Below are positions 10,946-60,798 of a stretch of DNA of 64,000 bases, one piece after another. Source of the stretch: Arcobacter sp. EP1 (lineage in GTDB: Bacteria; Campylobacterota; Campylobacteria; Campylobacterales; Arcobacteraceae); assembly GCA_001655195.1 (NCBI GenBank), contig LPNY01000139.1, positions 190,554-254,553 of the forward strand, written 5' to 3'. Within the stretch, counting starts at the first letter, position 1; every line of letters begins with the position of its first letter. The notes below the pieces were generated by a model. It did no database searches. It saw only the letters and a program-made list of their open reading frames with translations, and was not told where the DNA came from. The position numbers and the translations under genes were made by a program.

Positions 10946-11704
10946 ATGAAATATCTATTATCACTACTTATTGTTATTCTATTTACAGGATGTGTCCCTC
11001 AAAAAGAGTCTGTTCAAACATTTTTTCAAACAGATTCAGCAACTACCATTAAAAAAGATTATGCATTTGCAATCAAATCATTAAAAACACTTAAAACCAA
11101 ACTTGATAAACGAAATCCAAAGGCGTTTGATAAGACCTTAGTAAAAAGTATGAATACTCTCATAGATAATCTTGATAATACTTTACATCTAAAGTTTCAA
11201 GGTCGCACAATTGATAACTATAAAGACTACCTGCAACTTGCTTTTAGTAAAGATAGTATTAAAAACCGTAACGACTATTTTACACTGGGGTTATACTATT
11301 TAATTTATGATGCGTATGATATCAAAGAAGGACATCAAGTAACAGCACTATCATATAGCACTGAAAAACTTGAAAAGCTTTATAAAAACCTTCAAATTAT
11401 TAAATGGAAGATAAAATATGCTAAAAATATCAATGATAACTATCTTTTTTTAACATGGCAAAATAACTGGCAAATTGAACTTAAAAAAAGAATTAAAAAG
11501 GGGTATGAACCCTCATGGAAAGAGTTACAACAATTAGAATATATCAAAAATGGGAAAGAGTCCTTTTTTGTTGCATCTAATTTCTCTTTTGAAGTCTTAC
11601 TAACCCAAATGACTGATAGGGTTGCTAATACGTTACAACTTTTAGGTATCACTCCTCAGGAGATGAGTTTGGAAGCATTAAAGGCAATCTTTATTTTTAT
11701 TTAA
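10946..11704 (+). CDS. Predicted lipoprotein of unknown function
   Basis: Protein of 252 residues with a lipoprotein signal peptide ending in LFTGC (Cys 16). The mature part is rich in Lys, Leu and Tyr and predicted helical. I do not recognise a domain. The segment TDRVANTLQLLGITPQ near the C-terminus is its most distinctive part. It starts 20 bases after the valS terminator and has an AAAGGGG site. It precedes the adaptor gene of the split RND pump by about 105 bases, so a shared function with that pump is possible but not shown. Confidence 0.75.
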   Translation: MKYLLSLLIVILFTGCVPQKESVQTFFQTDSATTIKKDYAFAIKSLKTLKTKLDKRNPKAFDKTLVKSMNTLIDNLDNTLHLKFQGRTIDNYKDYLQLAFSKDSIKNRNDYFTLGLYYLIYDAYDIKEGHQVTALSYSTEKLEKLYKNLQIIKWKIKYAKNINDNYLFLTWQNNWQIELKKRIKKGYEPSWKELQQLEYIKNGKESFFVASNFSFEVLLTQMTDRVANTLQLLGITPQEMSLEALKAIFIFI

Positions 11705-11809: not shown

Positions 11810-12616
11810 ATGTTATCTATTCCCAAATATTTTTTAGGTTATCTCTTTCTACTCTTTCCTGTTTTTTTTTACGCAGAAGAGTTAACTCTGTCTGGTTTAA
11901 TCCAAAGTGATAATCAAAAACAAATATCCAGTAAATATAGTGGTTTTGTTGAAAAAGTTTATGTCCAAGAGGGAAATCGCGTTAAAAAAGGAGATAACCT
12001 TCTTAAGATTGATTCAAAAGAGTTGCAGACATCTAAAGCGCAACTTCTGCTCTCAATCTCACAAGCTCGCTTGAATTACAATACGTTAAAATACGAATAT
12101 TTAAAAACAGAAAAAGATTATAAACGTTACAAAGAGCTTATTAAAAAAGAGATGATTAGTAAAAGTTCTTTTGAAGAAGTTGAGTTAAAAGAACAGCGTT
12201 TAAAAAATAGTCTCGAAATTAGTAAAAAAGAGATTAACCAATTACAAGAACAACTACAAAAAATTAATAAAGAGTTTACTTACTTAAATATCAAAGCTTC
12301 AAGTAATGCATTAGTCATAGAAAAGAATATTAATGAAGGGGAGCTTACCTCTATATCAAAACCTTTGTTAACATTATGTGATATAGAAGACTTGGTTGTT
12401 TATTTAGACGTGGGAGAGAGCCATTTAAGACGTTTTGTAGCTTCTAAAGAAGTAGCTGTTTTTATTGAGTCCTTAGATTTATTAATAAAAGGAAAGATTG
12501 AAGCAATCTTACCCAATGTAGATCCAAGTTCAGGAAATTTTCGAGTTAAAATAGCACTTGAGAAAAGTGAGCAGTTAATTTTGCCGGGTATGTATGCCCA
12601 AGTTAGTATTAAGTAG
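11810..12616 (+). CDS. RND periplasmic adaptor (membrane fusion protein)
   Basis: HlyD/AcrA-type adaptor of 268 residues. It has a signal peptide ending near FYAEE, a biotinyl/lipoyl half-motif (SKYSGFVEKVYVQEGNRVKKGD), a long helical hairpin rich in Lys/Glu/Gln (residues about 70-165), a second lipoyl half and a beta-barrel region (GMYAQVSIK). It is shorter than AcrA (about 400 residues), as in minimal adaptors. Only 8 bases separate it from the first pump half, so it should link that pump to an outer-membrane channel. No TolC-like gene follows in this operon. Confidence 0.85.
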   Translation: MLSIPKYFLGYLFLLFPVFFYAEELTLSGLIQSDNQKQISSKYSGFVEKVYVQEGNRVKKGDNLLKIDSKELQTSKAQLLLSISQARLNYNTLKYEYLKTEKDYKRYKELIKKEMISKSSFEEVELKEQRLKNSLEISKKEINQLQEQLQKINKEFTYLNIKASSNALVIEKNINEGELTSISKPLLTLCDIEDLVVYLDVGESHLRRFVASKEVAVFIESLDLLIKGKIEAILPNVDPSSGNFRVKIALEKSEQLILPGMYAQVSIK

Positions 12617-12624
12617 AGTTATTA

Positions 12625-14172
12625 ATGGCATATCAAGATATAAAAGTTCATAACATTGGAGGGTTACTCTCTAAAACCTTTTTATACAATCCTCTAACGC
12701 CTATTATTGGCATCTTTATCCTTCTTTTAGGTTACATTGCTTTGGAGTTTATGCCACGAGAAGAGAACCCTCAAATGGTTGTGAGTGGCAGTACAATAAT
12801 GGTTTCATTACCAGGAGCAACTTCCCAAGAAATTTCTAATGTCATTGTTAAACCAATTGAGCGAAAAATGCGGGAGATAAAAGGAATAGAGCATATCAAC
12901 TCTATGGCTTTTAATGACAGAGCCATAATCAATGTCTCTTTTTTTATTGGAGAAGATAAAGAGGAATCCAATTTAAAAGTCTATGATAAAATCATGCAAA
13001 ATATGGATGTTTTACCAATGGGAGCAGGACAACCTTTGATAAAACCTTTGGATATTGATATTGATATTCCTATTTTCTCCATTGCTTTTTATACAAAAAA
13101 TAGTGCATTGCTCTCAACACAACTTTATGAAAAAATCAAACAAATTCAACACAAACTAAATCGAATCGAGAATGTAGCAACAACTAATATCATTGGTGGA
13201 GAGAAAAAACAGTTTAATGTTATTATTGATGCCAACAGACTCAACCGTTATAACTTAACCTTACAAGAGGTAAAAAGTGCACTTAGTTCGGTTATCAATC
13301 AATCAAATCAGAGTAAAAAAGCACAAGGTAATTTAATACAGATTGTCAGTGTTGAAGATGTGCTTCAAAGCGTTGAGGATTTAAAGAAGATTATGATTCC
13401 TAGCTCATCATTAATCTATTTAAAAGATATTGCAACCATAACACAATCGTACGATATTCAAAACTATAAAAGTAGTTATATTAACCTAAAAGTTGGTGAA
13501 AACTATGACAATGTTACTTTGACCTTATCAAAACTGAAAGGCTCTAATGCAGTAGTGATTTCCGAAGCCATAAATAATGAACTTGAAAGTATGAAGTCTA
13601 GTTTAAATGAAAAGGGCATTTATTATACTATAACACGAAATGATGGAGAGAGAGCAAATGATGCTGTGAACGAACTGATTTTCCATCTACTTATTTCCAT
13701 TGTAATTATTGTGATACTGTTAGTATTTGTTTTAGGGTGGAAAGAGGCAATGATTGTAACCTTTACAATACCTGCTATTTTTGCCATCACACTTTTTATT
13801 GCTTATTTAGGGGATCAAAGTATCAACCGTATCACACTATTTGCTTTTTTACTCTCCCTAGGCTTACTTGTGGATGATGCCATTGTTGTTGTAGAAAATA
13901 TTCACCGTCACTTTCATTTAAAAAGTAGTGAAGAAAAAAGTAATGAAGAAATCATGGTAGAAGCCACCGATGAAATTGGAGCATCAACAAATATTGCAAC
14001 CTTTGCTATTATTTTAACCATGATTCCTATGGCGTTTGTAGGACAAATGATGGGAGAGTTTATGCGTCCTATCCCCCTAAATGTCCCTATTGCGATGTTT
14101 GCTTCACTGATTATTGCTTATATCTTTACCCCATACTTTGCAAACAAGATGTTAAAAAGAGGAAATAAATAA
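12625..14172 (+). CDS. RND efflux pump, N-terminal half protein
   Basis: The first 515 residues of an AcrB-like pump as a separate protein. It contains the first transmembrane helix (about 26-44), the first periplasmic porter/docking loop (PREENPQ and PGATSQEISNVIVKPIE), and helices 2-6. The proton-relay aspartates are present (LLVDDAIVVVENIHRH). It ends with YIFTPYFANKMLKRGNK, exactly where a full-length pump passes from helix 6 to the inter-repeat linker. Its stop overlaps the next start by one base (TAATG), so both halves should be made together. Both reading frames are intact, which argues for a genuine split and not decay. Confidence 0.9.
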   Translation: MAYQDIKVHNIGGLLSKTFLYNPLTPIIGIFILLLGYIALEFMPREENPQMVVSGSTIMVSLPGATSQEISNVIVKPIERKMREIKGIEHINSMAFNDRAIINVSFFIGEDKEESNLKVYDKIMQNMDVLPMGAGQPLIKPLDIDIDIPIFSIAFYTKNSALLSTQLYEKIKQIQHKLNRIENVATTNIIGGEKKQFNVIIDANRLNRYNLTLQEVKSALSSVINQSNQSKKAQGNLIQIVSVEDVLQSVEDLKKIMIPSSSLIYLKDIATITQSYDIQNYKSSYINLKVGENYDNVTLTLSKLKGSNAVVISEAINNELESMKSSLNEKGIYYTITRNDGERANDAVNELIFHLLISIVIIVILLVFVLGWKEAMIVTFTIPAIFAITLFIAYLGDQSINRITLFAFLLSLGLLVDDAIVVVENIHRHFHLKSSEEKSNEEIMVEATDEIGASTNIATFAIILTMIPMAFVGQMMGEFMRPIPLNVPIAMFASLIIAYIFTPYFANKMLKRGNK

Positions 14173-15809
14173 TGAGTATAAAACCTATTATTACATGGTG
14201 CATTAATTCAACGTTTAATAAAACAGTTGTTTTATTAATGACCTTAGTTTCTTTTTTATTGGCAGTTTATCTACTTCCTTTAGAGATTGTAAAAGCGAAA
14301 ATGTTACCGGGTAAAGATTCAAATACTTTTACTATTTATGTGGATTTAAAAAGTGGTAGTTCTATTTTTCAAACAAAAAAAGTCACTGATAAAATAGTAC
14401 GTATTTTACAAAAAGAAGAAGAGATTTTAGATATTGAGGTTTTTTTAGGTACGCCATCTGCTTTAGATTTTGCAGGACTAGTTAAAGGAAGTGCCTTAAA
14501 AAGTGGGGAAAACTTTGCAGAAATTGTTGTTAATATTTTAAAGAAACATGATAGAACTGAACCTTCATATCTAATGGTACAACGATTACGTCCACTCTTA
14601 AATAGTGCCGTTTCTAAAATTAATAAAGAAGTTGTTATTAAAATGGTTGAGCCACCAGCAGGTCCTCCCGTTATGGCAGATATTGTGGCAGAAGTTTATG
14701 GAACAAATTTTGAAAGCATGCAACGTTTAGCACATAGAGTGCAAAAAGTATTGAGTGAAACAAAAGGCTTAGTTGATACTGATTTACTTAATGATGAAAC
14801 TTTTGAACGTTATACTTTGGTACTAAACTATGACAAAATTAAACGACTGGGCTTAGAGACACAAGCAGTTTCTAGCCTTATTGAAACAGCATTTAATGGA
14901 CAAGTAATTACCACTAAAAATATGAAAAATAGTTCAACTCAAGTTGATGTTTTTATGCGTTTAAAACAGCGTAGTATGAATTTAAATAGTGCGTTAGCTA
15001 GTTTAAAAATAAAAAGTTCTAACAACAAACTCATTTCATTAAGTGAAATTGTCAACGTTAAAAAAGTTCTCAATGATAAAACACGTTATTCAAAGAATTT
15101 ACAAGATGTTATTCACGTAGTAGCAACAACAGATATGGTTTCTCAAATTTATCCTCTATTAGATGCTAGAACTCATTTCTTAGAAGCCTTTTCTAATGAA
15201 TATGAGGTGAAAACTTCTAATTTGTTAAATCTTGAATTTATAGAAAAAAGTAGTGGTGAAAAATTAAAACTTGTTTGGGATGGTGAGTTAAAAGTTACTT
15301 TGGATACTTTTAGAGATTTAGGTGGTGCATTTATTGCAGCTTTGGTATTGATTTTTTTATTGATGGTTTTATATTATAAAAACTTTGCACTAAGTGGGAT
15401 TGTACTATTGGCAAGCTTTTTGTCAATCATTGGAGTGATTTTTGGTCATTTAATTATGGATTTGTTTACTCAAACAACCTTTTTCTTAACCGCTACTTCT
15501 TTGATTGGATTTATTGCACTCATTGGAATTAGTTCGCGTAACTCTTTATTGCTTATTGATTTTACGAAACAGTTAATGAGTGAAGGCAAAGATAAAAAAG
15601 AGGCTATTATAGAAGCTGCGACAATACGTTCTAAACCTATTTTCTTAACTGCTATGGCAATTATCTTAGCTTCAACGTTACTTGCTAGTGATGCTGTTTT
15701 TGGAGGCTTGGGTGTTTCATTGATTTTTGGTACTATTTCTGCGGTGATTGCTTCACTGTTTGTTGTACCTGTGCTACTTGATAACTTAGCTGAACAAAAA
15801 CTCTGTTAG
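14172..15809 (+). CDS. RND efflux pump, C-terminal half protein
   Basis: This 545-residue protein corresponds to the second repeat of an RND pump. Helix 7 lies at about 18-37, then KAKMLPGKDSNTF at the start of the second periplasmic loop, the loop itself (about 40-380), and helices 8-12. The helix-10 segment reads GISSRNSLLLIDF, with Arg where AcrB has the relay Lys, and RSKPIFLTAMAIIL follows. It has no proton-relay Asp pair, as expected for the second half. Translation is probably coupled to the first half through TAATG. Together the halves total 1060 residues, the length of a normal pump. The gene ends in a hairpin shared with a convergent RND gene. Confidence 0.9.
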   Translation: MSIKPIITWCINSTFNKTVVLLMTLVSFLLAVYLLPLEIVKAKMLPGKDSNTFTIYVDLKSGSSIFQTKKVTDKIVRILQKEEEILDIEVFLGTPSALDFAGLVKGSALKSGENFAEIVVNILKKHDRTEPSYLMVQRLRPLLNSAVSKINKEVVIKMVEPPAGPPVMADIVAEVYGTNFESMQRLAHRVQKVLSETKGLVDTDLLNDETFERYTLVLNYDKIKRLGLETQAVSSLIETAFNGQVITTKNMKNSSTQVDVFMRLKQRSMNLNSALASLKIKSSNNKLISLSEIVNVKKVLNDKTRYSKNLQDVIHVVATTDMVSQIYPLLDARTHFLEAFSNEYEVKTSNLLNLEFIEKSSGEKLKLVWDGELKVTLDTFRDLGGAFIAALVLIFLLMVLYYKNFALSGIVLLASFLSIIGVIFGHLIMDLFTQTTFFLTATSLIGFIALIGISSRNSLLLIDFTKQLMSEGKDKKEAIIEAATIRSKPIFLTAMAIILASTLLASDAVFGGLGVSLIFGTISAVIASLFVVPVLLDNLAEQKLC

Positions 15810-15818
15810 AGCTCTAAG

Positions 15819-15849
15819 GGTTAAAATAGTTTTAAAAACTATTTTAACC
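15819..15849. terminator. Bidirectional terminator between two RND loci
   Basis: A 15-bp inverted repeat beginning GGTTAAAATAGTTTT, closed by a single unpaired base, lies between the convergent pump genes. It contains the TAG stop of the minus-strand gene. Confidence 0.75.
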
Positions 15850-18800
15850 GATGCGCAAAAGAGTAAAGAACAGGCAAATAAACAAGGTTTAGTATGGTTC
15901 CCCACAGAAGTCCAAACCCAAGTCCAATAGCAATTGGTTGGAAGATAACTGCTTGACCTGTTGGAAAAAATATCAATGAACTCATTCCTATTAGAGTCGT
16001 GATTGTTGTTAAAATAATTGGTCGGAATCTTTTGGTTGCTCGCATGAAAACATCATTGAGGGTTTTTGCTTTTTTAAGATAGGTCATCATAATAATACCA
16101 TCGTTAATAACAACTCCTGCAAGACCTAAAGCTCCAATCATCGATGGCATAGAGAGATTGAGCCCCATGATTTTGTGTCCTATTAATACTCCCAATATGG
16201 AGAAAGGAATAACACTCATTAGAATAAATGTTTCTCTAAAAGAGTTGAATAGATAAAGCATTGCAAGCATAATCAGAATAATAGCAAGTGCTGAAGCTAA
16301 TAGCATATCACTTTTTAAAGATTTTTGCTTTTCTGCTTCTCCTTTAAAAACAAGTTTTATACCACTTTGTTTAATTCTATCTAATGTAGGTTGAAGTATC
16401 TCAACCACCTCTGTTGCAGTAATAATATTCGGGTCTACATTACCAAATACATAAAAATTCTTTTCTGCATTATCTTTTAGTAATTGCTCAAAACCTTTGA
16501 TAACTTTAAAATCAACAATTTGATGAAGTGCAATGAAAGTACCGTCTTCTAGAGGAATTTCGAGATTTTTAAAGCTTTCAAAATCATCTTTATGCAGACT
16601 CTCTATTTTAATATCCAACATATCTGTGGCATCAAAAGTAACCCCTTTCTTTTTTGAAAGGTACATGTTTGAAAGGTATGAACCAATAAACGTCTCATCA
16701 ATTCCTAGTTGTTCGCCGTAGGCATTAATTTTTAATTTAATTTCATCAATACCAAACTTGAGCGAATTTGAAGCAGATTTTACTCCTTTAATATTTTCGA
16801 GTTCATATTGTAAAGATTCAACAGCAGCGATGATTTTTTCATTATCATCTGAGACTAAACCAACTTTGATATCTGCTTTGATTGGACCCACTTTTCTTTC
16901 TAGAACTGCAATTTCGGAGAGTCCGAATTTCTCTTTGTAGTTTTTCTTTTCGATAAAATTTTTAAGTTTTTTAGCAATTTGTCGTGATTTAAGAGTTCGT
17001 GAACGTCCCTCTTTGTCATAATAAAAGCTCAAATAAGGAGTAACATATTTATCTAAAAAGTTTGCTGCTTTGAGTTTTTGAAGTTCAACAGTCATGTACA
17101 TAACATAAGGGTATCGTTCTGTATTGTTTCCAGTGTCTTTTCGGTATCCTGCAACAGAATCAATACTTCGTATGAAGAATTTATCCTGTTGTTCCATAAA
17201 GTCTCGTTCAATGGAACGTACAATTTTAAAGGCATCTTCTAGTTTTGTATTTTCATTGGCTTTGATAGAAATCTTAACATCAGTTGCATCAAACTTTGGA
17301 AACATCTGAAACTTAGAGGTTTTAATGGCCATAAAAGTTCCCAAGGGAACAAGAATAATGAAAATGAGTAGAAAGGTTTTTTTCCAATTCATAAAAAAGT
17401 GAATAATGGCACCATAGACCTTATTTGCTTTTTCCCATGAAGTTACTTTTGAACCGTTTTTAAGAGTATGCGCGGCATGTATTGGCAAAAATACAAAAGA
17501 TTCAATGAGTGAGGCAACAACTAATGCACTTAAAGCAATAGGAATAAGTTTCATCACTTCTCCCATATGTCCACTAATCATAAGAACAGGCAAAAAGGAG
17601 AATAGGGTTGTAATAGATGCAACAGTTACAGGTTTAACCATCTCTTTTGCACCCATAACTGCCGCTTCTTTTGGTTCAAAGCCTTCTTCAATATGTTGTT
17701 GAATATTTTCACTAACAACAATGGCATCATCAACTACAATACCAATGGCAATTAAAACACCCACTAGCGAAATCATATTGATGGTATAACCACTTAAATA
17801 CATGTAGATTGCAGCTATAACAAAAGAGGTTGGAATACCAATAGCAATGATTGCTGACATTCTAAAGTTTATAAGTATCATTACTAGAATAGTGATAAGT
17901 ATCACCCCTAATAAAATATTTGAGACAACAATATTGAGACGATCTAGGATTCTTTCACTATTATCATCGGCAATAGTCATGGTAATATCAGGGTTGATTT
18001 TATTGATTTGTGGTAAGAGTTTATTAATCTCTTGGGCAATTTTTATTGCATCAGCTGTTTCGCTTTGTTCAATTGCTAATGAAAGAGCACTTTTACCATT
18101 GAATGAATAGAGGGTTGAAGAGTCTTCGTATTTTTTTGAAATGAGGGCGATATCACGCAAATAGATGTTGCTATTATTGATTTTTATAAGGGTATTTGCA
18201 AAGTCTTGAGCGGTTTTTGCGCCATTGAATGTTGAGAGATAGTAGTGTTTATCACTGCCTTCTATTTTACCCACAGGAAAGATATATGATAGGGTTGAAA
18301 TTGCAGAAAAAACTTCATTTTTATTTAAATTAAGTGCTTCAATTTTTTTATCATCTAAAAGAACCTCAAAATATCTATCAGAGTCACCATAAATAGTGAT
18401 ATCATTAATTCCACCAATACCAAGAAGTTTACTTTTTAATTTATCAGCAAAAGGTTTTAACTCATCTGTTGTGAGTTTTTCAGAAGTTAATGAAATATCA
18501 ATTAAAGAACGGGAACGTTCTAGGGCATTAACCGTTGGTTCATCCATGTCTGTTGGTAAGTTTGATTTTACTAATGCTACGACATCTTTAACTTTATTAG
18601 CTTCGTTATATTTGTCTTTTCCTTTTTTTAATTCTAAGATAATTGTAAATTTACCAGGACTTATAATAGTAGAGATAGTATCAACACTATCAATATTTTT
18701 GACATTATCTTCTATCTCATTAACTGCCATCTTATCCAGAATATCAACAGAGGCACCATTGTATGAACCTTTGATGGAAATCATATCCAGTTCAAAACTT

Positions 18801-18919
18801 GGAAAAATCTCTTTAGGAGTATTGTTATAAGACCAAATTCCTATGGCAAAAACTAAAACAAAAAGCGTGTAGTTCATTCGTGAGTTATTAATAAAAAAAC
18901 GTAAAATATTTTCAAACAT
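15839..18919 (-). CDS. Full-length RND transporter without adjacent adaptor
   Basis: Inner-membrane RND permease of 1026 residues with 12 predicted helices and two large periplasmic loops. Signatures include PKEIFPSFELD after helix 1, the proton-relay pair in IAIGIVVDDAIVVSEN, and AGVVINDGIIMM in helix 10. No adaptor or outer-membrane channel gene is on its strand next to it, unlike the other two RND loci here. It is more like pumps often annotated as hydrophobe/amphiphile efflux than CusA. The substrate is unknown. It may borrow the adaptor of the convergent split pump or act alone. Confidence 0.9.
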   Translation of the reverse strand: MFENILRFFINNSRMNYTLFVLVFAIGIWSYNNTPKEIFPSFELDMISIKGSYNGASVDILDKMAVNEIEDNVKNIDSVDTISTIISPGKFTIILELKKGKDKYNEANKVKDVVALVKSNLPTDMDEPTVNALERSRSLIDISLTSEKLTTDELKPFADKLKSKLLGIGGINDITIYGDSDRYFEVLLDDKKIEALNLNKNEVFSAISTLSYIFPVGKIEGSDKHYYLSTFNGAKTAQDFANTLIKINNSNIYLRDIALISKKYEDSSTLYSFNGKSALSLAIEQSETADAIKIAQEINKLLPQINKINPDITMTIADDNSERILDRLNIVVSNILLGVILITILVMILINFRMSAIIAIGIPTSFVIAAIYMYLSGYTINMISLVGVLIAIGIVVDDAIVVSENIQQHIEEGFEPKEAAVMGAKEMVKPVTVASITTLFSFLPVLMISGHMGEVMKLIPIALSALVVASLIESFVFLPIHAAHTLKNGSKVTSWEKANKVYGAIIHFFMNWKKTFLLIFIILVPLGTFMAIKTSKFQMFPKFDATDVKISIKANENTKLEDAFKIVRSIERDFMEQQDKFFIRSIDSVAGYRKDTGNNTERYPYVMYMTVELQKLKAANFLDKYVTPYLSFYYDKEGRSRTLKSRQIAKKLKNFIEKKNYKEKFGLSEIAVLERKVGPIKADIKVGLVSDDNEKIIAAVESLQYELENIKGVKSASNSLKFGIDEIKLKINAYGEQLGIDETFIGSYLSNMYLSKKKGVTFDATDMLDIKIESLHKDDFESFKNLEIPLEDGTFIALHQIVDFKVIKGFEQLLKDNAEKNFYVFGNVDPNIITATEVVEILQPTLDRIKQSGIKLVFKGEAEKQKSLKSDMLLASALAIILIMLAMLYLFNSFRETFILMSVIPFSILGVLIGHKIMGLNLSMPSMIGALGLAGVVINDGIIMMTYLKKAKTLNDVFMRATKRFRPIILTTITTLIGMSSLIFFPTGQAVIFQPIAIGLGFGLLWGTILNLVYLPVLYSFAHRLK

Positions 18920-19020: not shown

Positions 19021-21240
19021 TTATCGACTTGATGCATGTAGTTGCAGTGATTTGACTTTTTCATAATCATCATCTTCTTTAACATTTTCTGCAAATAATT
19101 TAATATTAAGTAAATTTGATAGCTCTTGCATTGATTCTACAAAGGCTTGTTTACCACTATCTTTATAAATTTTATCAGTATAATCACGAGCAAGTCTAAT
19201 ATAATCAATATTTAAATCTTTAATACTCTCCAATGGTACAAATTTAGATTCAAAACGTTTGATAATCACTTTTGAACCAGCTGCGTGTATCGCTTTTGAG
19301 AAGAGTTTAAATTTATTAATATCCTTTGCAACCCCATAGGCTGTTATCGAAAAGACCAATTGATGTGCAATAGTTTTATGGGTTTCCACTTGCTCTTCTA
19401 ACCAGTGAATAAACTCTAAATTACCAATAGAGTCTAATGATAAGTTAATTGAAATATCGTGCTTGATACTATTTTGTAAAATGTATCCAATAACTTTTGA
19501 AACTACAGCTTTATCAAAGTCAACGACTTTGTCATATTTTTCTGCAATAGATACAAATGTACCAATAGGAATCTGTTCATTACTATTATCTTTTGCTTGG
19601 GTAAAGGCTTCTTGCATGACAAGACGTCCTTCATCTTCTCCACATAAAATACAAGCATCACCAATATATCCAACACTGAATTTAGAGTTATCAATAATGT
19701 CAAAAATTAAATCTTTCCATGCTTGCATATCTCTTGCTAGATCACTATCGTCTCGAATGAATGATTCATTAGGTCCAATTTGTTTTGCCATTTCATAGGC
19801 TTCAATACATGCACTTAACATTTCAGGCGTTGTTCCAATAGGATTAAATGGTGTTGCTCCAATATTTGCCACATGGGCATGGTTTACATGTTTACCGAGT
19901 TTTTCAAACTCTTCTTTTAAATAGGTAGCAACTGCTTTTGATTCATCATGAGTTGCATTTTCTAAAATCATTGCAAATTCTGAACCAAAGAAACGGTATG
20001 CAGAAACAGGGAATTTAAAAGCATTATTGGTATCTTTTAAAATCATGGCAAATGTTTTGATAAATTTATCCACTTCATTATTAGTATGATTTTTAGCAAA
20101 AGTACCTAAATCATGGATTTTGATAGAGAGTACATAACCACTATTTTTGGCAATAAACATTTTTTTCATATCCGTTTCAAAAGTTTGCCGAACACTTAGA
20201 TTTGTTAAATCATCCAGTGAGATTTTCTTAGTTACATTTTCAATATTTGAGTTAAGTTTTTTAATAATAGATTCAATTTTTGTTGACATTTCATTCATAG
20301 CAATAGCAACATTTTTGATTTCCGTTGTCCAAGGAAGTTTTTCAATGGTTGAAAATTGTCCTTTAGAAATATTCATAGCGAGTTTTTCAATGTTTTTTAA
20401 CGGTTTTAAAATAAATTGTAAGAAAACAACTAAACATGCAATGGAAATAGCAAAAGCAATAATGGCATAAACAATGGCACTTTTTGCTTGTTCATAAAGT
20501 TTTGCATATGCATCTCCTGCATTTGCACTCACATAAATAACCGCCGTAGTATTCCACCCAGAGTTGATTTCACTACTTTTTTCACTCATTTGAAGAGGTA
20601 AAGTATTGATAAACCATTGAGGTACATAATCAAATTTTTCTTCACGGTTCTCTTTGAGTAGAATTTTACTCATATTAATATTGGCAGTTGTTTGTGTTTG
20701 GGTGTCATTATAGGTTGCTGTAAATTTAAAGGGAACCATTCCTCCGTTTTCATACTCTTTAGAAGGTAAAAACTTATAAACTTTTGCTTGGGCATTATCA
20801 ATAATATCAGCAGGTGTAGTAGCGTCATTTTCTAATGCTGCCAATTCATTTCCAAGAGAATCATCACTATTCATATCAATTTTACCAAAGCTTTTATCAA
20901 CGATGATATCACTAATTTGCCAGCTAATACTTTGATCCAATTGTGTAGCATTGAGAAGCTCTTGGTTAGTAAAGGTAAACTCAATATCTTCAAGCCGTAT
21001 CTCTTTGTAGAATCCTCTATTAGAAATAGCTTTAATAATAGACTCAATTTCAGGGTCTTTTTTATTATGCATGTATGGTTTAAGTGTCATTCCTAAAGAG
21101 GTCGCTGTATCTTGAGCTTTTGTTGAAGACTCAGTTTGTAGATACTCTTTGGTGTTTTGAACACTAATAATAAAGTTCCCTGTAAATATCATCAAAAAAA
21201 TGAGTGATATGATGAGGTATAGTTGTTTTGCTAATGACAT
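19021..21240 (-). CDS. lapD: LapD-like c-di-GMP receptor (degenerate GGDEF-EAL)
   Basis: Inner-membrane receptor of 739 residues. A helix near residues 7-27 leads into a LapD/MoxY-type periplasmic domain, then a second helix near 250-275, HAMP, GGDEF and EAL domains. Both enzyme sites are degenerate. The GGDEF loop reads RFFGSEFAM, the EAL motif reads QEAF, and the later catalytic Glu position reads LVFSITAYG. It should therefore bind c-di-GMP without making or cleaving it. In the known system, c-di-GMP-bound LapD sequesters the protease LapG and keeps a large adhesin on the surface. The lapG gene lies 13 bases upstream on the same strand, which supports the call strongly. Confidence 0.88.
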   Translation of the reverse strand: MSLAKQLYLIISLIFLMIFTGNFIISVQNTKEYLQTESSTKAQDTATSLGMTLKPYMHNKKDPEIESIIKAISNRGFYKEIRLEDIEFTFTNQELLNATQLDQSISWQISDIIVDKSFGKIDMNSDDSLGNELAALENDATTPADIIDNAQAKVYKFLPSKEYENGGMVPFKFTATYNDTQTQTTANINMSKILLKENREEKFDYVPQWFINTLPLQMSEKSSEINSGWNTTAVIYVSANAGDAYAKLYEQAKSAIVYAIIAFAISIACLVVFLQFILKPLKNIEKLAMNISKGQFSTIEKLPWTTEIKNVAIAMNEMSTKIESIIKKLNSNIENVTKKISLDDLTNLSVRQTFETDMKKMFIAKNSGYVLSIKIHDLGTFAKNHTNNEVDKFIKTFAMILKDTNNAFKFPVSAYRFFGSEFAMILENATHDESKAVATYLKEEFEKLGKHVNHAHVANIGATPFNPIGTTPEMLSACIEAYEMAKQIGPNESFIRDDSDLARDMQAWKDLIFDIIDNSKFSVGYIGDACILCGEDEGRLVMQEAFTQAKDNSNEQIPIGTFVSIAEKYDKVVDFDKAVVSKVIGYILQNSIKHDISINLSLDSIGNLEFIHWLEEQVETHKTIAHQLVFSITAYGVAKDINKFKLFSKAIHAAGSKVIIKRFESKFVPLESIKDLNIDYIRLARDYTDKIYKDSGKQAFVESMQELSNLLNIKLFAENVKEDDDYEKVKSLQLHASSR

Positions 21241-21253
21241 TGTTAACCCTTTT

Positions 21254-21895
21254 TTAAATTCTACTCATAAGATCTTTCCACGATCTTAGGTTGTTTTTTC
21301 CCACTTGCTTAAATGTTTTACCTTTGTTTTTCGCTTGCCATAAGCCACTGGCATTGAAGCTATAAACTGGTTTTAAGTCTCTTCTTTTTGTCGCTAATTT
21401 TAGTTTTTGATTAATGTTATCCATTACAATTGGTGTGGCATTTGGTTTGTGATAATAGGTTAATACCATATGGGCTTGTTCGAATTTTGTTCGTTTCCCT
21501 CGGTATTTAACATACATGATACGAAGTTTATGGTCTGGAACACCAAGTTTTCGTAAGGTAAAGTATTTTGCGATGGCATAATCTTCACAATCACCCGCAC
21601 CTGTTCCCATAAATTCAAAAGGTGCCGCCCAGTAATCTTTTTTCTTCCAGTGTTTAATATCCAGACGATATTTGATTTTGTTAAAAAAATCATTAACACT
21701 TTTGAGTTTTTGTAGTGTTTTTTTACCTCTTGTTTTTTCAACAAGATTATCCCAAAGTAAGACTCTTTTTTGAGCTTTTTTACCATATTTTTTGGTAAAT
21801 TCATTGAGCTTTGACTGGGTAATATTATGAGGGGTGTTTGCCGTCAAAGGAAGAAACAATAAAAAAATCATTGAAAGGAAAACAAGCGATTTCAT
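21254..21895 (-). CDS. lapG: LapG-like periplasmic transglutaminase-like cysteine protease
   Basis: Periplasmic protease of 213 residues with a signal peptide (cleavage near LTANT). The bacterial transglutaminase-like fold shows its catalytic triad: Cys 103 in GTGAGDCEDYAIAK, His 142 in FEQAHMVLTYY and Asp 159 in TPIVMDNINQ. The Asp/Glu next to the Cys fits the calcium-dependent LapG type. The known role is cleaving the N-terminal retention module of a LapA-type adhesin when c-di-GMP falls. It is the first gene of a lapG-lapD operon. No LapA-like adhesin or its type I secretion genes are inside this window. Confidence 0.9.
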   Translation of the reverse strand: MKSLVFLSMIFLLFLPLTANTPHNITQSKLNEFTKKYGKKAQKRVLLWDNLVEKTRGKKTLQKLKSVNDFFNKIKYRLDIKHWKKKDYWAAPFEFMGTGAGDCEDYAIAKYFTLRKLGVPDHKLRIMYVKYRGKRTKFEQAHMVLTYYHKPNATPIVMDNINQKLKLATKRRDLKPVYSFNASGLWQAKNKGKTFKQVGKNNLRSWKDLMSRI

Positions 21896-55194: not shown

Positions 55195-56232
55195 ATGTTT
55201 AAAAAATTATTGATTATTACTTTATCTTCACTGTCATTGTTTGCTATGGGTGGACCATCACTTGTAGAAACGACAAAGTTGATAAAAGGTGAAGTAAACC
55301 CATTACAAGAGTTTGTAGGAACACTTAAATTTGACAGAAACTCTGTTTTAGCTGCACAAAATGCAGGTGTGATAAAAGCACTAAATTTTGAAGTAGGGGA
55401 CAAAGTTAAAAAAGGTGATGTTCTTGTGCAAGTTGATGCTGATGTTTTAAATGCGCAAGTTGCGGCAGCTTCAGCAAATGTAGCTAGTGCAAGAAATGAA
55501 AAAACAAATGCAAAAAAAGATTTTGAAAGATATTCAAAACTGCTTTTAACAAAAGCAATTTCTCAAAAACAATATGATGATGCACAATTGAAATATAATA
55601 CAACAACAAGTAGTCTAAAAGCATTACAAGCACAGTTAAGAGAACTCCAAATTCAACGAAACAAAAAATCAATTAAAGCACCTTTTGATGGAGTTATTGT
55701 TGATAAAAAAATTGATTTAGGTGAATGGGTAAGTGCCGGTACACCTGTACTTTCTATGGTTGATATCACAAAAGTTGAAATCACTGTAAATGTTCCTTTA
55801 ACAATTGTAAATGGATTAAAAAAAGGTGATCAATATGATATCAATGTTGGAAACAATATTTTAAAAGCAACACTTCAAGCTGCTATTCCAAGTGGTGATA
55901 AATTAACACGAACATTTCCTGTAAAGTTTAAAGCAAAAACTAATGGAACTTTTCTTTTTGATGGTCAACAAGCTAAAGTGAGTCTTTCTCAAAATGCTAA
56001 AAAAGAGTCATTACTTTTACCTCGAGATGCAGTAATTAAGCGCTTTGGTCAAAATGTTGTTTTTGCAATCAATAAAGAATCAATGGCACAGATGATTCCT
56101 GTACAAGTAGTTGGATACGTTGGTAAACAAGTTGCAGTAAGTGCCAAAAGTCTTCAAATAGGTATGGATATTGTTGTTAAAGGAAATGAAAGAGTATTTC
56201 CTAATAGCCCAGTAAAAATAATAAATAAATAG
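55195..56232 (+). CDS. RND periplasmic adaptor
   Basis: AcrA-type adaptor of 345 residues. Signal peptide MFKKLLIITLSSLSLFA. Lipoyl halves around QNAGVIKALNFEVGDKVKKGD and KAPFDGVIVDKKIDLGEWV flank a helical hairpin (about 85-155). A beta-barrel and membrane-proximal domain end it. It precedes its pump, but a 162-base structured gap with three hairpins separates them. The role is to bridge the pump to TolC. Confidence 0.93.
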   Translation: MFKKLLIITLSSLSLFAMGGPSLVETTKLIKGEVNPLQEFVGTLKFDRNSVLAAQNAGVIKALNFEVGDKVKKGDVLVQVDADVLNAQVAAASANVASARNEKTNAKKDFERYSKLLLTKAISQKQYDDAQLKYNTTTSSLKALQAQLRELQIQRNKKSIKAPFDGVIVDKKIDLGEWVSAGTPVLSMVDITKVEITVNVPLTIVNGLKKGDQYDINVGNNILKATLQAAIPSGDKLTRTFPVKFKAKTNGTFLFDGQQAKVSLSQNAKKESLLLPRDAVIKRFGQNVVFAINKESMAQMIPVQVVGYVGKQVAVSAKSLQIGMDIVVKGNERVFPNSPVKIINK

Positions 56233-56373
56233 AGATAACTCGTTATCTCCTTTAGGGTTTGTTTCTTTAAATGGAATTTATTTCCATTGTTAAAAGAAAT
56301 AAAAAAATAAAAAGGTTCCCTTGAAGGTCCCCTAAAAAAATGAATATTTTTTCAGGCACCTTTTATTGGGAAC
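56232..56373 (+). promoter_or_regulatory. Structured intra-operon region between adaptor and pump
   Basis: Three successive inverted repeats lie in this gap. First, GAGATAAC/GTTATCTC (56232-56249), which overlaps the adaptor stop. Second, TTTCTTT with an inner AATGGAA pairing to TTCCATT and AAAGAAA (56262-56299). Third, a nested hairpin (56315-56373) with stems GTTCCC/GGGAAC, AAGGT/ACCTT and CCTaAAAAAAT/ATTTTTTcAGG. The pump's AAAGGAA site follows. It could attenuate or stabilise the downstream part of the operon. Confidence 0.6.
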
Positions 56374-56394
56374 AAATTTAAAGGAATATATATT

Positions 56395-59300
56395 ATGGAT
56401 TTAATAAAATTTTCGATTAAAAACCCAGTTACAATTATTGTATCTGTTTTAATCGTTGTATTGTTTGGGTTTTTATCACTAACAAAATTACCATATCAAT
56501 TAACTCCTTCTGTAACAAAACCTGAAATCAAGATTACAACTGCTTGGCCAGGGGCAACTCCTTATGAAATTGAGCGAGAGATTATAGAAGAACAAGAAGA
56601 TGTGGTTAAAAGTTTAAATAACTTAATAAAATATGAATCTTCATCAAAAGATAATTATGGTGAACTGACATTAACATTTAAACTAGGAACTGATTTAAGA
56701 GCTGCTTTACAAGACGTTTCAAATAAATTAAATGAAGTTAGTTCATATCCTAATGATGTAGAAGAACCAATTATTGAAACTGCAACTGCCAGCCCAGTTA
56801 TTTGGATGATGCTTCAGACAAATGAAGCAAATACAAGACATATTGATGAGTATAAAACTTTTTTTGATGATGAAATTGTACCAACAATAAAAAGAGTTGA
56901 TGGCGTAGCTGGAACGATGACAGCAGGTGGTCGTGACCAAGAGATGCAAATTGTATTTGATACAAATAAATTAGCGACATATGGATTAACGATTTCTCAA
57001 GTCATTAATATTTTGCAAAATGAAAATGTGGATGTTGCTGCTGGTATCCAAAATATTGATAGACGTGCATATCGAATTAGAACGGTACATAAATTTGCTT
57101 CTACAAAAGATGTGGAAGATACAATTTTAATCTCAAACAGAGAACAAAGAGTAACTGTTGGTGATATTGCAAAAGTTGATTTTGGATATGAAACAGCAAA
57201 CACAGTTGCAATGTTCTTAGGAAAAGATGGTATTTTCTTAGGGGTTCAGCCAAACTCAGATGCAAATATTGTAGCGCTTACAAATGATGTTGAAACAGTA
57301 ATCAATGATTTAAATGCAGGGCTTTTAAAGAACAATAACCTTGTAATGCAATGGTTATATGATGAACGACCATATATTGTTGGTTCCGTTGATTTAGTTC
57401 AACAAAATATTATGATTGGTGGTGCTTTAGCTGTTATCATTTTAATACTATTTTTAAGAAGTCTTTCTCCAACAGCAGTTGTTTCAGTTGCTATTCCAAT
57501 TTCGATTATTGGTACATTTATTATTCTTTCAGCAATGGGAAGAAGTTTAAATACTATTTCTCTTGCAGGTATCTCTTTTGCTGTGGGTATGTTAGTTGAC
57601 TCCGCCATCGTTGTATTAGAAAATATTGATAGGCATAGAAAAGAGGGGATGAGTATTGGTGAAGCTGCATATGTTGGAGCTAGTGAAGTATGGGGAGCAT
57701 TAATTGCTTCTGCCCTTACAACTATCGCTGTATTTTTACCAATTGTATTTTTACAAGATGAAGCGGGACAACTATTTAAAGATATTGCAATTGCAGTAAC
57801 TGCTGCTGTAACATTCTCTTTATTTGTTTCAATTTCTGTTATTCCAATGCTTTGGAAAAAATTTGCGGGAATCTCTGGTAAAGAGCCAAAAGATGCTGGA
57901 GCACTTGCAAACTTTGGACACAAAATAGTAAATTTAATCATGTCGATTGTAAACATCTCTTTAAAGAATGTATTGACAAAAATTGTAACCATTGTTTCAC
58001 TTGCTGCAATTTCAGTAGGGATAATCTTTACACTGTTTCCAAAGCTTGATTATTTACCACAAGGAAATAAGAACTTAATTTTTAATATTCTTATTACTCC
58101 TCCTGGGCTTTCATATCAAGAACGATATGATATGGGTGCATACTTAATGAAAGAAGTTGAACCTCATATTAATAAAGACGTAGATGGTATTCCAGGATTA
58201 AACAGAGCATTCTTTGTTTCCTTTGGAGATTTTAATATCTTTGGTGGAACATCAATGCATGAAGATAGAGCAAAAGAGACGATTCCAATGTTTAGACCTA
58301 TTGTTAACTCTCTTCCATCAACAATTGGAATCTCACTTCAGTCAGGTGTATTTGAAGATGGTATTGGAGAAGGAAACACTGTTGATATTGATATTTCTGG
58401 TGAAAAAATTGAAGATATTGCAAATGTAGGTATGCAACTGTTTGGTGCAACTATGGGAACTGTAAAAGGTTCACAAGTACGACCAGTACCTTCAGTTGAG
58501 TTATTATATCCAGAAGTAAAAATCTCTCCAAATCAAGATGCACTTAAAGCACTTGGTATGACTTCAAGAGATTTAGGTATTGCAGTTGATGTATTGATGA
58601 GTGGAAGAAAAGTTGGTGATTTTGAACAAGACGGTAAAAAGAAAATTGACTTGGTTTTAAAAGCAGATGATAATCTAATCCAAACTCCTGAAGATATTAT
58701 GGCAGCGCAAATTGTACTACCTAATTCTTCATTAATTCCAATGTCATCTTTAGCATCGTATAGTAGTTCAACGGGTATTAGTGAGATTCGACACTTAGAT
58801 GGGAAACGAACCATTACATTGCAAGTTACTCCACCTCCAGGAATGACAATTGATGAAACCATGAAAACAATTGGTGGAATGCTTGCAGGCATGAAGGCAA
58901 AAGGAATGATTTCAAATAGTGTTGATATTGGTATTTCTGGAACAGCAGATAAATTGACTGAAACAATAGGTTTATTAACAGGAAGTTTTATGTTAGCATT
59001 ATTGGTGATTTATTTATTAATGTCATCACTTTTTGGTAACTTCTTTTATCCATTAGTTATTATGTTTACTGTTCCACTAGCAACTGCAGGTGGTTTTATT
59101 GGACTATGGTTAACAAAAACTTTTGTCCCTGGGGCGGAAGGACAGACGCTAGATATTTTAACAATGTTAGGATTTATTATTTTAGTAGGTATTGTTGTAA
59201 ATAATGCTATTTTAATTGTTCACCAAAGTTTAAACTATATTAGAAAAGAGGGTATTGAACATAAAAAAGCAGTTGTTGAAGCTACAAGAACAAGAATTAG

Positions 59301-59541
59301 ACCAATTTATATGTCATCAATGACATCTATTTTTGGTATGTTACCGTTAGTTTTAGTTCCTGGTCCTGGTTCAGAGTTCTATAGAGGTTTAGGTTCAGTA
59401 ATTACTGGTGGATTAGCATTCTCAACAATCTTTACAATTTTTGTAACGCCAGCTTTATTGATGTTCTTTATAAAATTAGAACAAAAACTAGGTAGCAAAA
59501 CAGCACAACAAGAACGTGAAGCAATTAATACACAGGCATAA
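56395..59541 (+). CDS. RND multidrug-type efflux pump
   Basis: Inner-membrane permease of 1048 residues with the full AcrB-type architecture: helix 1, porter loop (WPGATPYEIEREIIE), helices 2-6, second loop, helices 7-12. The relay region reads MLVDSAIVVLENIDRHR, keeping one Asp with Ser in place of the second, a variant also common in other RND pumps. Helix 10 has VGIVVNNAILIVH. It is preceded by its own adaptor and followed 12 bases later by a TolC-type channel, so it is a complete tripartite pump under TetR control. Confidence 0.95.
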   Translation: MDLIKFSIKNPVTIIVSVLIVVLFGFLSLTKLPYQLTPSVTKPEIKITTAWPGATPYEIEREIIEEQEDVVKSLNNLIKYESSSKDNYGELTLTFKLGTDLRAALQDVSNKLNEVSSYPNDVEEPIIETATASPVIWMMLQTNEANTRHIDEYKTFFDDEIVPTIKRVDGVAGTMTAGGRDQEMQIVFDTNKLATYGLTISQVINILQNENVDVAAGIQNIDRRAYRIRTVHKFASTKDVEDTILISNREQRVTVGDIAKVDFGYETANTVAMFLGKDGIFLGVQPNSDANIVALTNDVETVINDLNAGLLKNNNLVMQWLYDERPYIVGSVDLVQQNIMIGGALAVIILILFLRSLSPTAVVSVAIPISIIGTFIILSAMGRSLNTISLAGISFAVGMLVDSAIVVLENIDRHRKEGMSIGEAAYVGASEVWGALIASALTTIAVFLPIVFLQDEAGQLFKDIAIAVTAAVTFSLFVSISVIPMLWKKFAGISGKEPKDAGALANFGHKIVNLIMSIVNISLKNVLTKIVTIVSLAAISVGIIFTLFPKLDYLPQGNKNLIFNILITPPGLSYQERYDMGAYLMKEVEPHINKDVDGIPGLNRAFFVSFGDFNIFGGTSMHEDRAKETIPMFRPIVNSLPSTIGISLQSGVFEDGIGEGNTVDIDISGEKIEDIANVGMQLFGATMGTVKGSQVRPVPSVELLYPEVKISPNQDALKALGMTSRDLGIAVDVLMSGRKVGDFEQDGKKKIDLVLKADDNLIQTPEDIMAAQIVLPNSSLIPMSSLASYSSSTGISEIRHLDGKRTITLQVTPPPGMTIDETMKTIGGMLAGMKAKGMISNSVDIGISGTADKLTETIGLLTGSFMLALLVIYLLMSSLFGNFFYPLVIMFTVPLATAGGFIGLWLTKTFVPGAEGQTLDILTMLGFIILVGIVVNNAILIVHQSLNYIRKEGIEHKKAVVEATRTRIRPIYMSSMTSIFGMLPLVLVPGPGSEFYRGLGSVITGGLAFSTIFTIFVTPALLMFFIKLEQKLGSKTAQQEREAINTQA

Positions 59542-59553
59542 AGGAAAAGTAGC

Positions 59554-60798
59554 ATGAAGAAAATTACACTAATATCATTAGCCGCAACGTTAACAACATC
59601 ATTATGGGCTTTGACTCTTGATGAAGCTATTAATATTGCAGTTGAAAATAACTATAACCTTCAAGAACAGAACTATATTCTTGAAGAGTCAAAAGAGAAT
59701 ATTGAATTAAAACGTGCATCACTGATGCCAAATGTTGATTTGTCATACTCGTATAATGATAGAGACAAAGCATCAAGTAGTCAAACAAAAAAGGACTCAA
59801 CTGCAACAGCAAAACTTTCTTACAACCTTTTTAATGGGTTTAAAGATATCAAAAGTATGCAAAGTGCAAAGTTTTTGGCAAAATCTTCATCTTTTACGTT
59901 AAATGCAAAAACTCAAGATATTGTTTTAAATACAAAATCAACTTATATAAATTTGTTGGATCAACATAAAAATTTAGCAACAACTCAAGATGCCTATAAA
60001 CTTTTTGAAAAACAGTATGAAGATGCAAAAATACGATTCGAACAAGGACTATTAGCGAAAAATGATTTACTCCAAGTCAATGTTAATATGCTCGATGCTA
60101 AACAAGACGTGATGACCGCTAAAAAAGATTATCAAGTAGCACGTTTAGAACTCTCTAATTTATTAGGGGGTAAAGACTTATCAAATGTTGGTATTGATGA
60201 AATTCATATCAAGGAGTTAGCGTTAGATAAACACTCTTTAGAGGATTTAGAATCACGAAGCGAACTTGAAGCCTTAAAAATGAATATTGAAAGCATGAAT
60301 GCTTTGGTGGATACTCAAAAAGCAGACTTTTATCCATCTGTTGATACAAGCTATTCATACTCACAATTTGGGAATGATATGAGCCCTGATGGAAGAGGAA
60401 GTTACCCTGATAACCAAAATGTAGGTACTATTTCTGCATCATGGAATCTATATGAGGGTGGAGCAGATGCTAGTCAGATTAAAATTTACTTGTCTCAAAA
60501 ACGTCAAGTGTTAGCGCAACTTGATCGAACGCGATTAGATATTAAACTACAGTATGAAACAGCACTTTTAGATTTAGATGTAGCAAAACAAAACTATGAG
60601 ACTTCTAAGTTATCATTAGAACAAGCAAAAGAAAACTACAATATTGTCGAGAGTCGATACAAAGAAGGGTTATCAAGTACAACTGACCTGATTGATGCAA
60701 ATTACTTATTAAGTAAAGCAAAACAGCGATATTCTAAATCATACTACGATAAATTTTTAGCCGTTGCAACGTTAAAAAGAGTATTAGAAGTAAAATAA
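59554..60798 (+). CDS. TolC-family outer-membrane efflux channel
   Basis: Outer-membrane factor of 414 residues. Signal peptide ends near TTSLWAL. Two repeats of the TolC helical barrel are visible, beginning LTLDEAINIAVENNYNL and later LESRSELEALKMNIESMN. The equatorial and exit segments have SYNLFNGFKD and SWNLYEGGAD, the paired motif at the strand-helix junctions. It is the last gene of the TetR efflux operon, and a terminator follows. It may also serve the split pump, which lacks a channel gene. Confidence 0.93.
   Translation: MKKITLISLAATLTTSLWALTLDEAINIAVENNYNLQEQNYILEESKENIELKRASLMPNVDLSYSYNDRDKASSSQTKKDSTATAKLSYNLFNGFKDIKSMQSAKFLAKSSSFTLNAKTQDIVLNTKSTYINLLDQHKNLATTQDAYKLFEKQYEDAKIRFEQGLLAKNDLLQVNVNMLDAKQDVMTAKKDYQVARLELSNLLGGKDLSNVGIDEIHIKELALDKHSLEDLESRSELEALKMNIESMNALVDTQKADFYPSVDTSYSYSQFGNDMSPDGRGSYPDNQNVGTISASWNLYEGGADASQIKIYLSQKRQVLAQLDRTRLDIKLQYETALLDLDVAKQNYETSKLSLEQAKENYNIVESRYKEGLSSTTDLIDANYLLSKAKQRYSKSYYDKFLAVATLKRVLEVK

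Follow-up and report, generated by a model that had tools for sequence, protein, structure and literature searches.

A permease of the RND type encoded by two adjacent half-genes in Arcobacter sp. EP1 and other Campylobacterota

The closest described systems are the AcrB-type (HAE-1, ACR_tran) permeases of tripartite pumps. These are single chains with two repeats, porter and docking domains and a relay of Asp, Arg and Thr residues, and their genes lie beside an adaptor gene and often a TolC gene. We analysed 64,000 nucleotides of the 3.0 Mb genome of Arcobacter sp. EP1 (contig LPNY01000139.1), and this whole stretch is called the window. It contains an RND permease with the same fold, repeats and domains, a relay Asp, Arg and Thr, and the same type of gene neighbourhood, but encoded as two chains instead of one. 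The two genes are referred to as the N-half and the C-half. A further difference is that the adaptor encoded next to them has no membrane-proximal domain.

Two described systems also combine products of separate genes. SecD/SecF is a heterodimer of two proteins with six transmembrane helices (TM) each (PMC8277102). As in the window, a 12-helix unit of the RND superfamily is made from two 6-helix chains; the difference is that the split described here arose separately within tripartite pumps. A previous interpretation of the letters of the window by a model (the sequence-only reading) had described the pump as recalling SecD/SecF. The likeness holds in form and not in membership, as the scores were far below the NCBIfam cut-offs (SecDF 30.6 bits, cut-off 500; SecF 24.4, cut-off 160; SecD/SecF 22.2, cut-off 148.6). 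The Pfam model SecD_SecF_C matched the N-half with 23.1 (cut-off 20.5). Since a single-chain RND permease of the same window scores 27.5, this match is not discriminating. MdtB/MdtC is likewise a hetero-oligomeric pump from two adjacent genes, but each protein is full-length (1040 and 1025 amino acids, aa) and stems from duplication; they are not halves.

Literature searches on split or half-size RND pumps returned nothing relevant; subscription papers were mostly outside their scope, and an earlier description is possible. Under the terms searched, an RND paper on Aliarcobacter butzleri (PMC8300790) makes no mention of splitting.

The locus and the distribution of the split

Open reading frames (ORFs) and the junction were read from the window DNA, domains were assigned with Pfam and NCBIfam models, and folds were assessed with AlphaFold2 and Foldseek. 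The features of the locus are as follows:

11810..12616, + strand: periplasmic adaptor, 268 aa; signal peptide, lipoyl halves, alpha-hairpin, beta-barrel
12625..14172, + strand: N-half of the RND permease, 515 aa; TM1, porter/docking half, TM2-TM6
14158..14163, + strand: AGAGGA, Shine-Dalgarno-like site for the C-half, within the 3' end of the N-half gene
14170..14174, + strand: TAATG stop/start overlap in the sequence, inter-repeat junction; same spacing in 43 of 98 split relatives
14172..15809, + strand: C-half of the RND permease, 545 aa; amphipathic helix, TM7, porter/docking half, TM8-TM12

The split of the RND pump into two ORFs is confirmed. The N-half and C-half genes share one base at TAATG, and the adaptor gene lies 8 bp upstream of the N-half gene, with the arrangement and coordinates exactly as in the sequence-only reading. 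The Pfam model ACR_tran (cut-off 28 bits) covers the N-half with positions 2-493 of 1021 (273 bits) and the C-half with positions 520-1016 (142 bits). The cut therefore lies between the two repeats, with ~27 model positions missing. The linker had been described as cleanly lost. It is indeed shortened, but ~10 residues past TM6 and the amphipathic helix ahead of TM7 are retained, so there is no outright loss.

AlphaFold2 was run on each half alone. The N-half model (mean predicted local distance difference test, pLDDT, 75.5) has six long helices in the layout TM1, periplasmic region, TM2-6. The C-half model (mean pLDDT 73.4) also has six, with one TM, a periplasmic region and five TM. Each half has one periplasmic region of ~300-340 aa. 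In Foldseek, both halves matched the single-chain proteins AcrB, AcrD, AdeJ and CmeB across nearly their entire length. The assignment of helices 1-6 and 7-12 with full-length domains, made from the letters alone, agrees with the ACR_tran coverage, these layouts and the structure matches. The best solved sequence match of the C-half was MexK (20yy), and an Arg-Asn in TM10 is common to both. The best NCBIfam model, RND_permease_2, gave 238.3 bits (N-half) and 121.1 bits (C-half), below a cut-off of 1250 that is set for the full-length chain. All RND permease subfamily scores in NCBIfam were far under the cut-offs for both halves.

To collect loci, 41 relatives were searched and genome contigs were scanned, and all complete loci were read (n=115). 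The same cut at the inter-repeat loop was found in 98 loci, and 17 were fused (a first pass over the loci had given 86 split and 4 fused). In the window and in these 98 loci, the two repeats lie on separate ORFs and not on one polypeptide. Both halves are adjacent in all 98 cases. The loci come from Arcobacter, Sulfuricurvum, Sulfurimonas, Sulfurospirillum, Sulfurovum and Thiovulum. Split loci occur in closed genomes too (e.g. G013, Sulfurospirillum cavolei UCH003), and RefSeq annotates the halves as separate coding sequences in Sulfurovum mangrovi and Sulfuricurvum kujiense. Of 397 Campylobacterota genomes, 163 have the N-half family, which occurs in 42 of 68 genera; among the matches listed, every one has an ORF of 509-565 aa.

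Among named relatives, Arcobacter sp. CECT 8985 is the closest (73% identity across the N-half). Every relative read with >52% identity is split. The unsplit genes were confined to a sister clade, where tblastn gave 43-48% identity across the N-half, and to out-groups at a greater distance. Hence, the unsplit gene in close relatives that the sequence-only reading had named as a refuting result did not occur. The fused Campylobacterota versions belong to families f15 (nine of nine genomes checked), f12, f17, f5 and f19. All other full-length RND permeases were single chains of 1016-1065 aa in six genomes checked with the Pfam model.

Some loci differed in detail. The N-halves of L160-L163 and L031 have 571-583 aa, with extra sequence near the position of residue 295 of the window N-half; for L160 and L163, adaptor and TolC genes were not found in the stretch read. 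A divergent copy lies on the Sulfuricurvum kujiense plasmid pSULKU01 (L115 / L150) in the order TetR, N-half, C-half; nearby, the opposite strand carries genes for TolC and a short adaptor.

Pairing of the halves, the junction and the origin of the split

The relay was compared in AcrB numbering across 93 split and 13 fused rows. The positions of D407, K940, R971 and T978 are Asp, Arg, Arg and Thr in all 93 split and all 13 fused pumps. The TM4 Asp (D407) is on the N-half, and the Arg at K940 (TM10) and the Arg and Thr at R971 and T978 (TM11) are on the C-half. By analogy with the AcrB mechanism, relay residues on both proteins imply that the N-half and C-half would pair in one 12-helix unit. 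A relay Asp pair had been proposed for the window. Its first Asp is invariant; the second (D408), which is Asp in the window, is Ala in 73 of the 93 split pumps and is not a feature of the clade. The window also encodes an RND permease in one chain of 1026 aa, convergent to the split pump (15839-18919, minus strand). It has Asn at the K940 position, and no adjoining adaptor gene was recognised.

The best explanation of the whole is, in our judgement, very probably a two-polypeptide RND permease that works as an AcrB-like trimer of N/C heterodimers driven by the proton-motive force. One fission of an ancestral Campylobacterota pump gene would have shortened the cytoplasmic TM6-TM7 linker and equipped the second repeat with a start codon and a ribosome-binding site of its own. 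The halves would then be co-translated as separate polypeptides. The N-half (TM1-6) and the C-half (TM7-12) most likely insert separately and pair into a 12-helix pseudo-protomer, and the assembly is most likely an AcrB-like trimer with three N-halves and three C-halves. Export would be driven by proton flow through a charge relay that crosses both chains, with the Asp in TM4 on the N-half and an Arg in TM10 and an Arg and a Thr in TM11 on the C-half. The shortened adaptor and a TolC-type channel would be the partners of the pump. The data show directly that the genes are separate, that the split has a single origin, that the halves and their relay residues are conserved and that the adaptor has a deletion. 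Assembly, stoichiometry, proton coupling and export are predicted from the fold and the relay residues.

Several points weigh against this explanation. The two polypeptides, their association and their transport are predicted from conservation and homology, and the AlphaFold2 models cover each half singly (pLDDT 75.5 and 73.4). A TolC gene adjoining the pump was not found in the stretch read for the window and its closest relatives (L033, L164). Moreover, the membrane-proximal domain of the adaptor is reported to be essential in AcrAB-TolC (PMC8277102), so AcrB-like docking of the adaptor cannot be assumed here.

The halves could also act as separate homomeric machines or swap with other RND halves, with no fixed N/C pair. 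Several genomes have two split copies (e.g. G039, G030 and G376), and mixed pairs would be possible there. However, the halves are always adjacent and co-translated, the distance matrices of N-halves and C-halves are correlated (r = 0.965, 95 loci), and the relay residues are on both chains. We consider this arrangement very improbable.

It is also very unlikely that ribosomes pass the junction by programmed -1 frameshifting or by read-through of the stop and so yield at least some full-length chain. In the window and in many relatives, the C-half is in the -1 frame immediately at the stop codon (TAATG, ATGA), and slippage is conceivable. But the form of the junction is variable. The offset is -1 in 43 of 98 loci (as in the window), -4 (e.g. 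ATGA) in 13 and -14 in 10, and overall it ranges from -29 to +9 nt; the exception is L107, in which an early interruption breaks the N-half. In some junctions the two halves share a frame and are separated by a stop (TAA or TAG) that an ATG follows after 1-10 nt. In others the frames differ in one direction or the other, and longer overlaps in another frame also occur. A single recoding event does not account for all of these forms. Almost every C-half start also has its own ribosome-binding site: a Shine-Dalgarno-like match of at least 4 nt preceded the C-half start in 96% of loci and 20.5% of control ATGs (3,743 ATGs inside N-halves). Scoring was a simple string match on related loci, so these percentages characterise this set and do not amount to a test on independent samples.

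In eight pairs of split relatives, the ratio of nonsynonymous to synonymous substitutions (dN/dS) lay between 0.039 and 0.071 in the N-half and between 0.035 and 0.104 in the C-half. The values of two fused pairs were similar (0.056 and 0.099). These ratios indicate that both halves are under strong purifying selection. The conserved split, the separate ribosome-binding site, the dN/dS of 0.04-0.10 and the invariant relay residues support the view of the sequence-only reading that this is a working split pump and not a frameshift.

The origin of the split was assessed in trees. A tree of the joined proteins (98 rows, including 75 split and 13 fused Campylobacterota pumps) placed the 75 split pumps in one clade with a Shimodaira-Hasegawa-like approximate likelihood ratio test (SH-aLRT) value of 100. 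Its sister group consisted of the 13 fused Campylobacterota pumps; outside both came the fused pumps of Roseibium, Sphingopyxis, Polaromonas and Kovacikia plasmids. N-only and C-only trees, built under a mixture model with Flammeovirga, Pseudanabaena and Salinivibrio as further out-groups, both recovered the split clade with SH-aLRT 100. The nearest out-groups are fused, both in Campylobacterota and in other phyla. No re-fusion within the split clade was seen in the rows studied, as every fused row was outside it. The nesting of the split clade among single-chain pumps argues for a derived fission that happened once only. According to these trees, the split is a single ancient fission and not a pre-fusion intermediate, and the suggestion of an evolutionary intermediate is not upheld. 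The fused sisters L029, L030, L151 and L152 have His/Glu-rich TM6-TM7 linkers at the fission site.

RND repeats are thought to stem from duplication, and SecD and SecF are separate in many bacteria. On this basis, the split state could be an ancestral relic from before repeat fusion, with the single-chain relatives as later fusions. This is extremely unlikely: the split pumps form one well-supported branch among single-chain pumps, and one change explains all of them. The out-groups in Alpha-, Beta- and Gammaproteobacteria, Cyanobacteriota and Bacteroidota are single-chain, as are AcrB, CusA and MdtBC of E. coli. An ancestral split was rejected on the joined, N-only and C-only trees.

A sequencing error or a recent pseudogene of a single-chain pump has next to no probability, as nothing except the split itself speaks for it and the same split in 98 loci including closed genomes, the dN/dS of 0.04-0.10 and the invariant relay residues speak against it; assembly error, pseudogene and frameshift were rejected on the relatives, the dN/dS and the variable junctions.

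The adaptor and the gene context

In the window adaptor, the HlyD_D23 match reaches residue 263 of 268, and RND_mfp also matches. Its alpha-hairpin has a TolC-tip-like stretch (RYxxLxxxxxIS), and the protein ends directly past the beta-barrel. Its best solved sequence matches were TriA (6vej) and MexJ (20yy). The window adaptor aligns only up to ~241-292 of known RND adaptors and then ends, and the adaptor of the fused operon L029 aligns to TriA 17-330 and MexJ 28-330. Complete adaptors encoded directly upstream of split pumps have 236-279 aa vs. 307-439 aa in fused operons. In the alignment, split-operon adaptors stop after the beta-barrel and also have no N-terminal strand, whereas fused-operon adaptors have this strand and ~75-80 residues more. 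Hence, both elements of the membrane-proximal domain are absent in the former and present in the latter.

According to a review, the membrane-proximal domain is part of the core of all RND-associated adaptors and is missing with transporters that have no periplasmic domains; DevB is an apparent exception to this rule (PMC8277102). The split-pump permease has both periplasmic domains. DevB-type adaptors are similar in that barrel, lipoyl domain and hairpin are present and the membrane-proximal domain is absent. They differ in that the partner of the window adaptor is an RND permease with both periplasmic domains.

The fission and the loss of the adaptor domain fall on the same branch of the tree and thus count as one co-occurrence, not as many independent ones. 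A coordinated redesign is a tentative and rather doubtful reading of this: a separate N/C interface would take over a job of the linker or the adaptor, and the pumps would dock their adaptor, and couple its binding to transport, in a manner that known RND systems do not show. Relocation of the adaptor domain into the pump was rejected, as shared insertions specific to split pumps were ≤8 columns.

The usual gene order is TolC, adaptor, N-half, C-half, e.g. in Sulfurovum mangrovi, and a TolC gene is upstream in most relatives. The genome of the window has several PF02321 genes elsewhere. In a few Arcobacteraceae loci the order is TetR-TolC-N-C or TolC-N-C, and no adaptor gene separates TolC from the N-half. 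In L044, L051 and L168 (L045 in part), the split pump is directly behind TolC, and in L044 and L051 a TetR-type regulator gene precedes TolC. On the doubtful reading of a coordinated redesign, the pumps of these four loci may even join TolC without a dedicated adaptor.

The window also has a complete ordinary adaptor-RND-TolC set (345, 1048 and 414 aa; 55195-60798) as a single-chain contrast. Between valS and the adaptor gene lies a gene (10946-11704) for a protein of 252 aa whose N-terminus resembles that of a lipoprotein; neither Pfam nor NCBIfam gave a match for it. At 19021-21895 (minus strand), a LapD-like gene (LapD_MoxY_N, GGDEF, EAL) adjoins a LapG-like gene (Peptidase_C93); they are a control pair for adhesins that acts through cyclic di-GMP.

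RND pumps have been treated as single chains with tied repeats, and a membrane-proximal domain has been regarded as a constant part of their adaptors. A large natural clade in which the repeats are not tied by a linker and the adaptor domain is absent allows a direct test of what both are for. The split pump also offers halves that can be tagged and mutated separately. For the family, it means that a fission of the RND repeat pair can stay stable across the diversification of a phylum.
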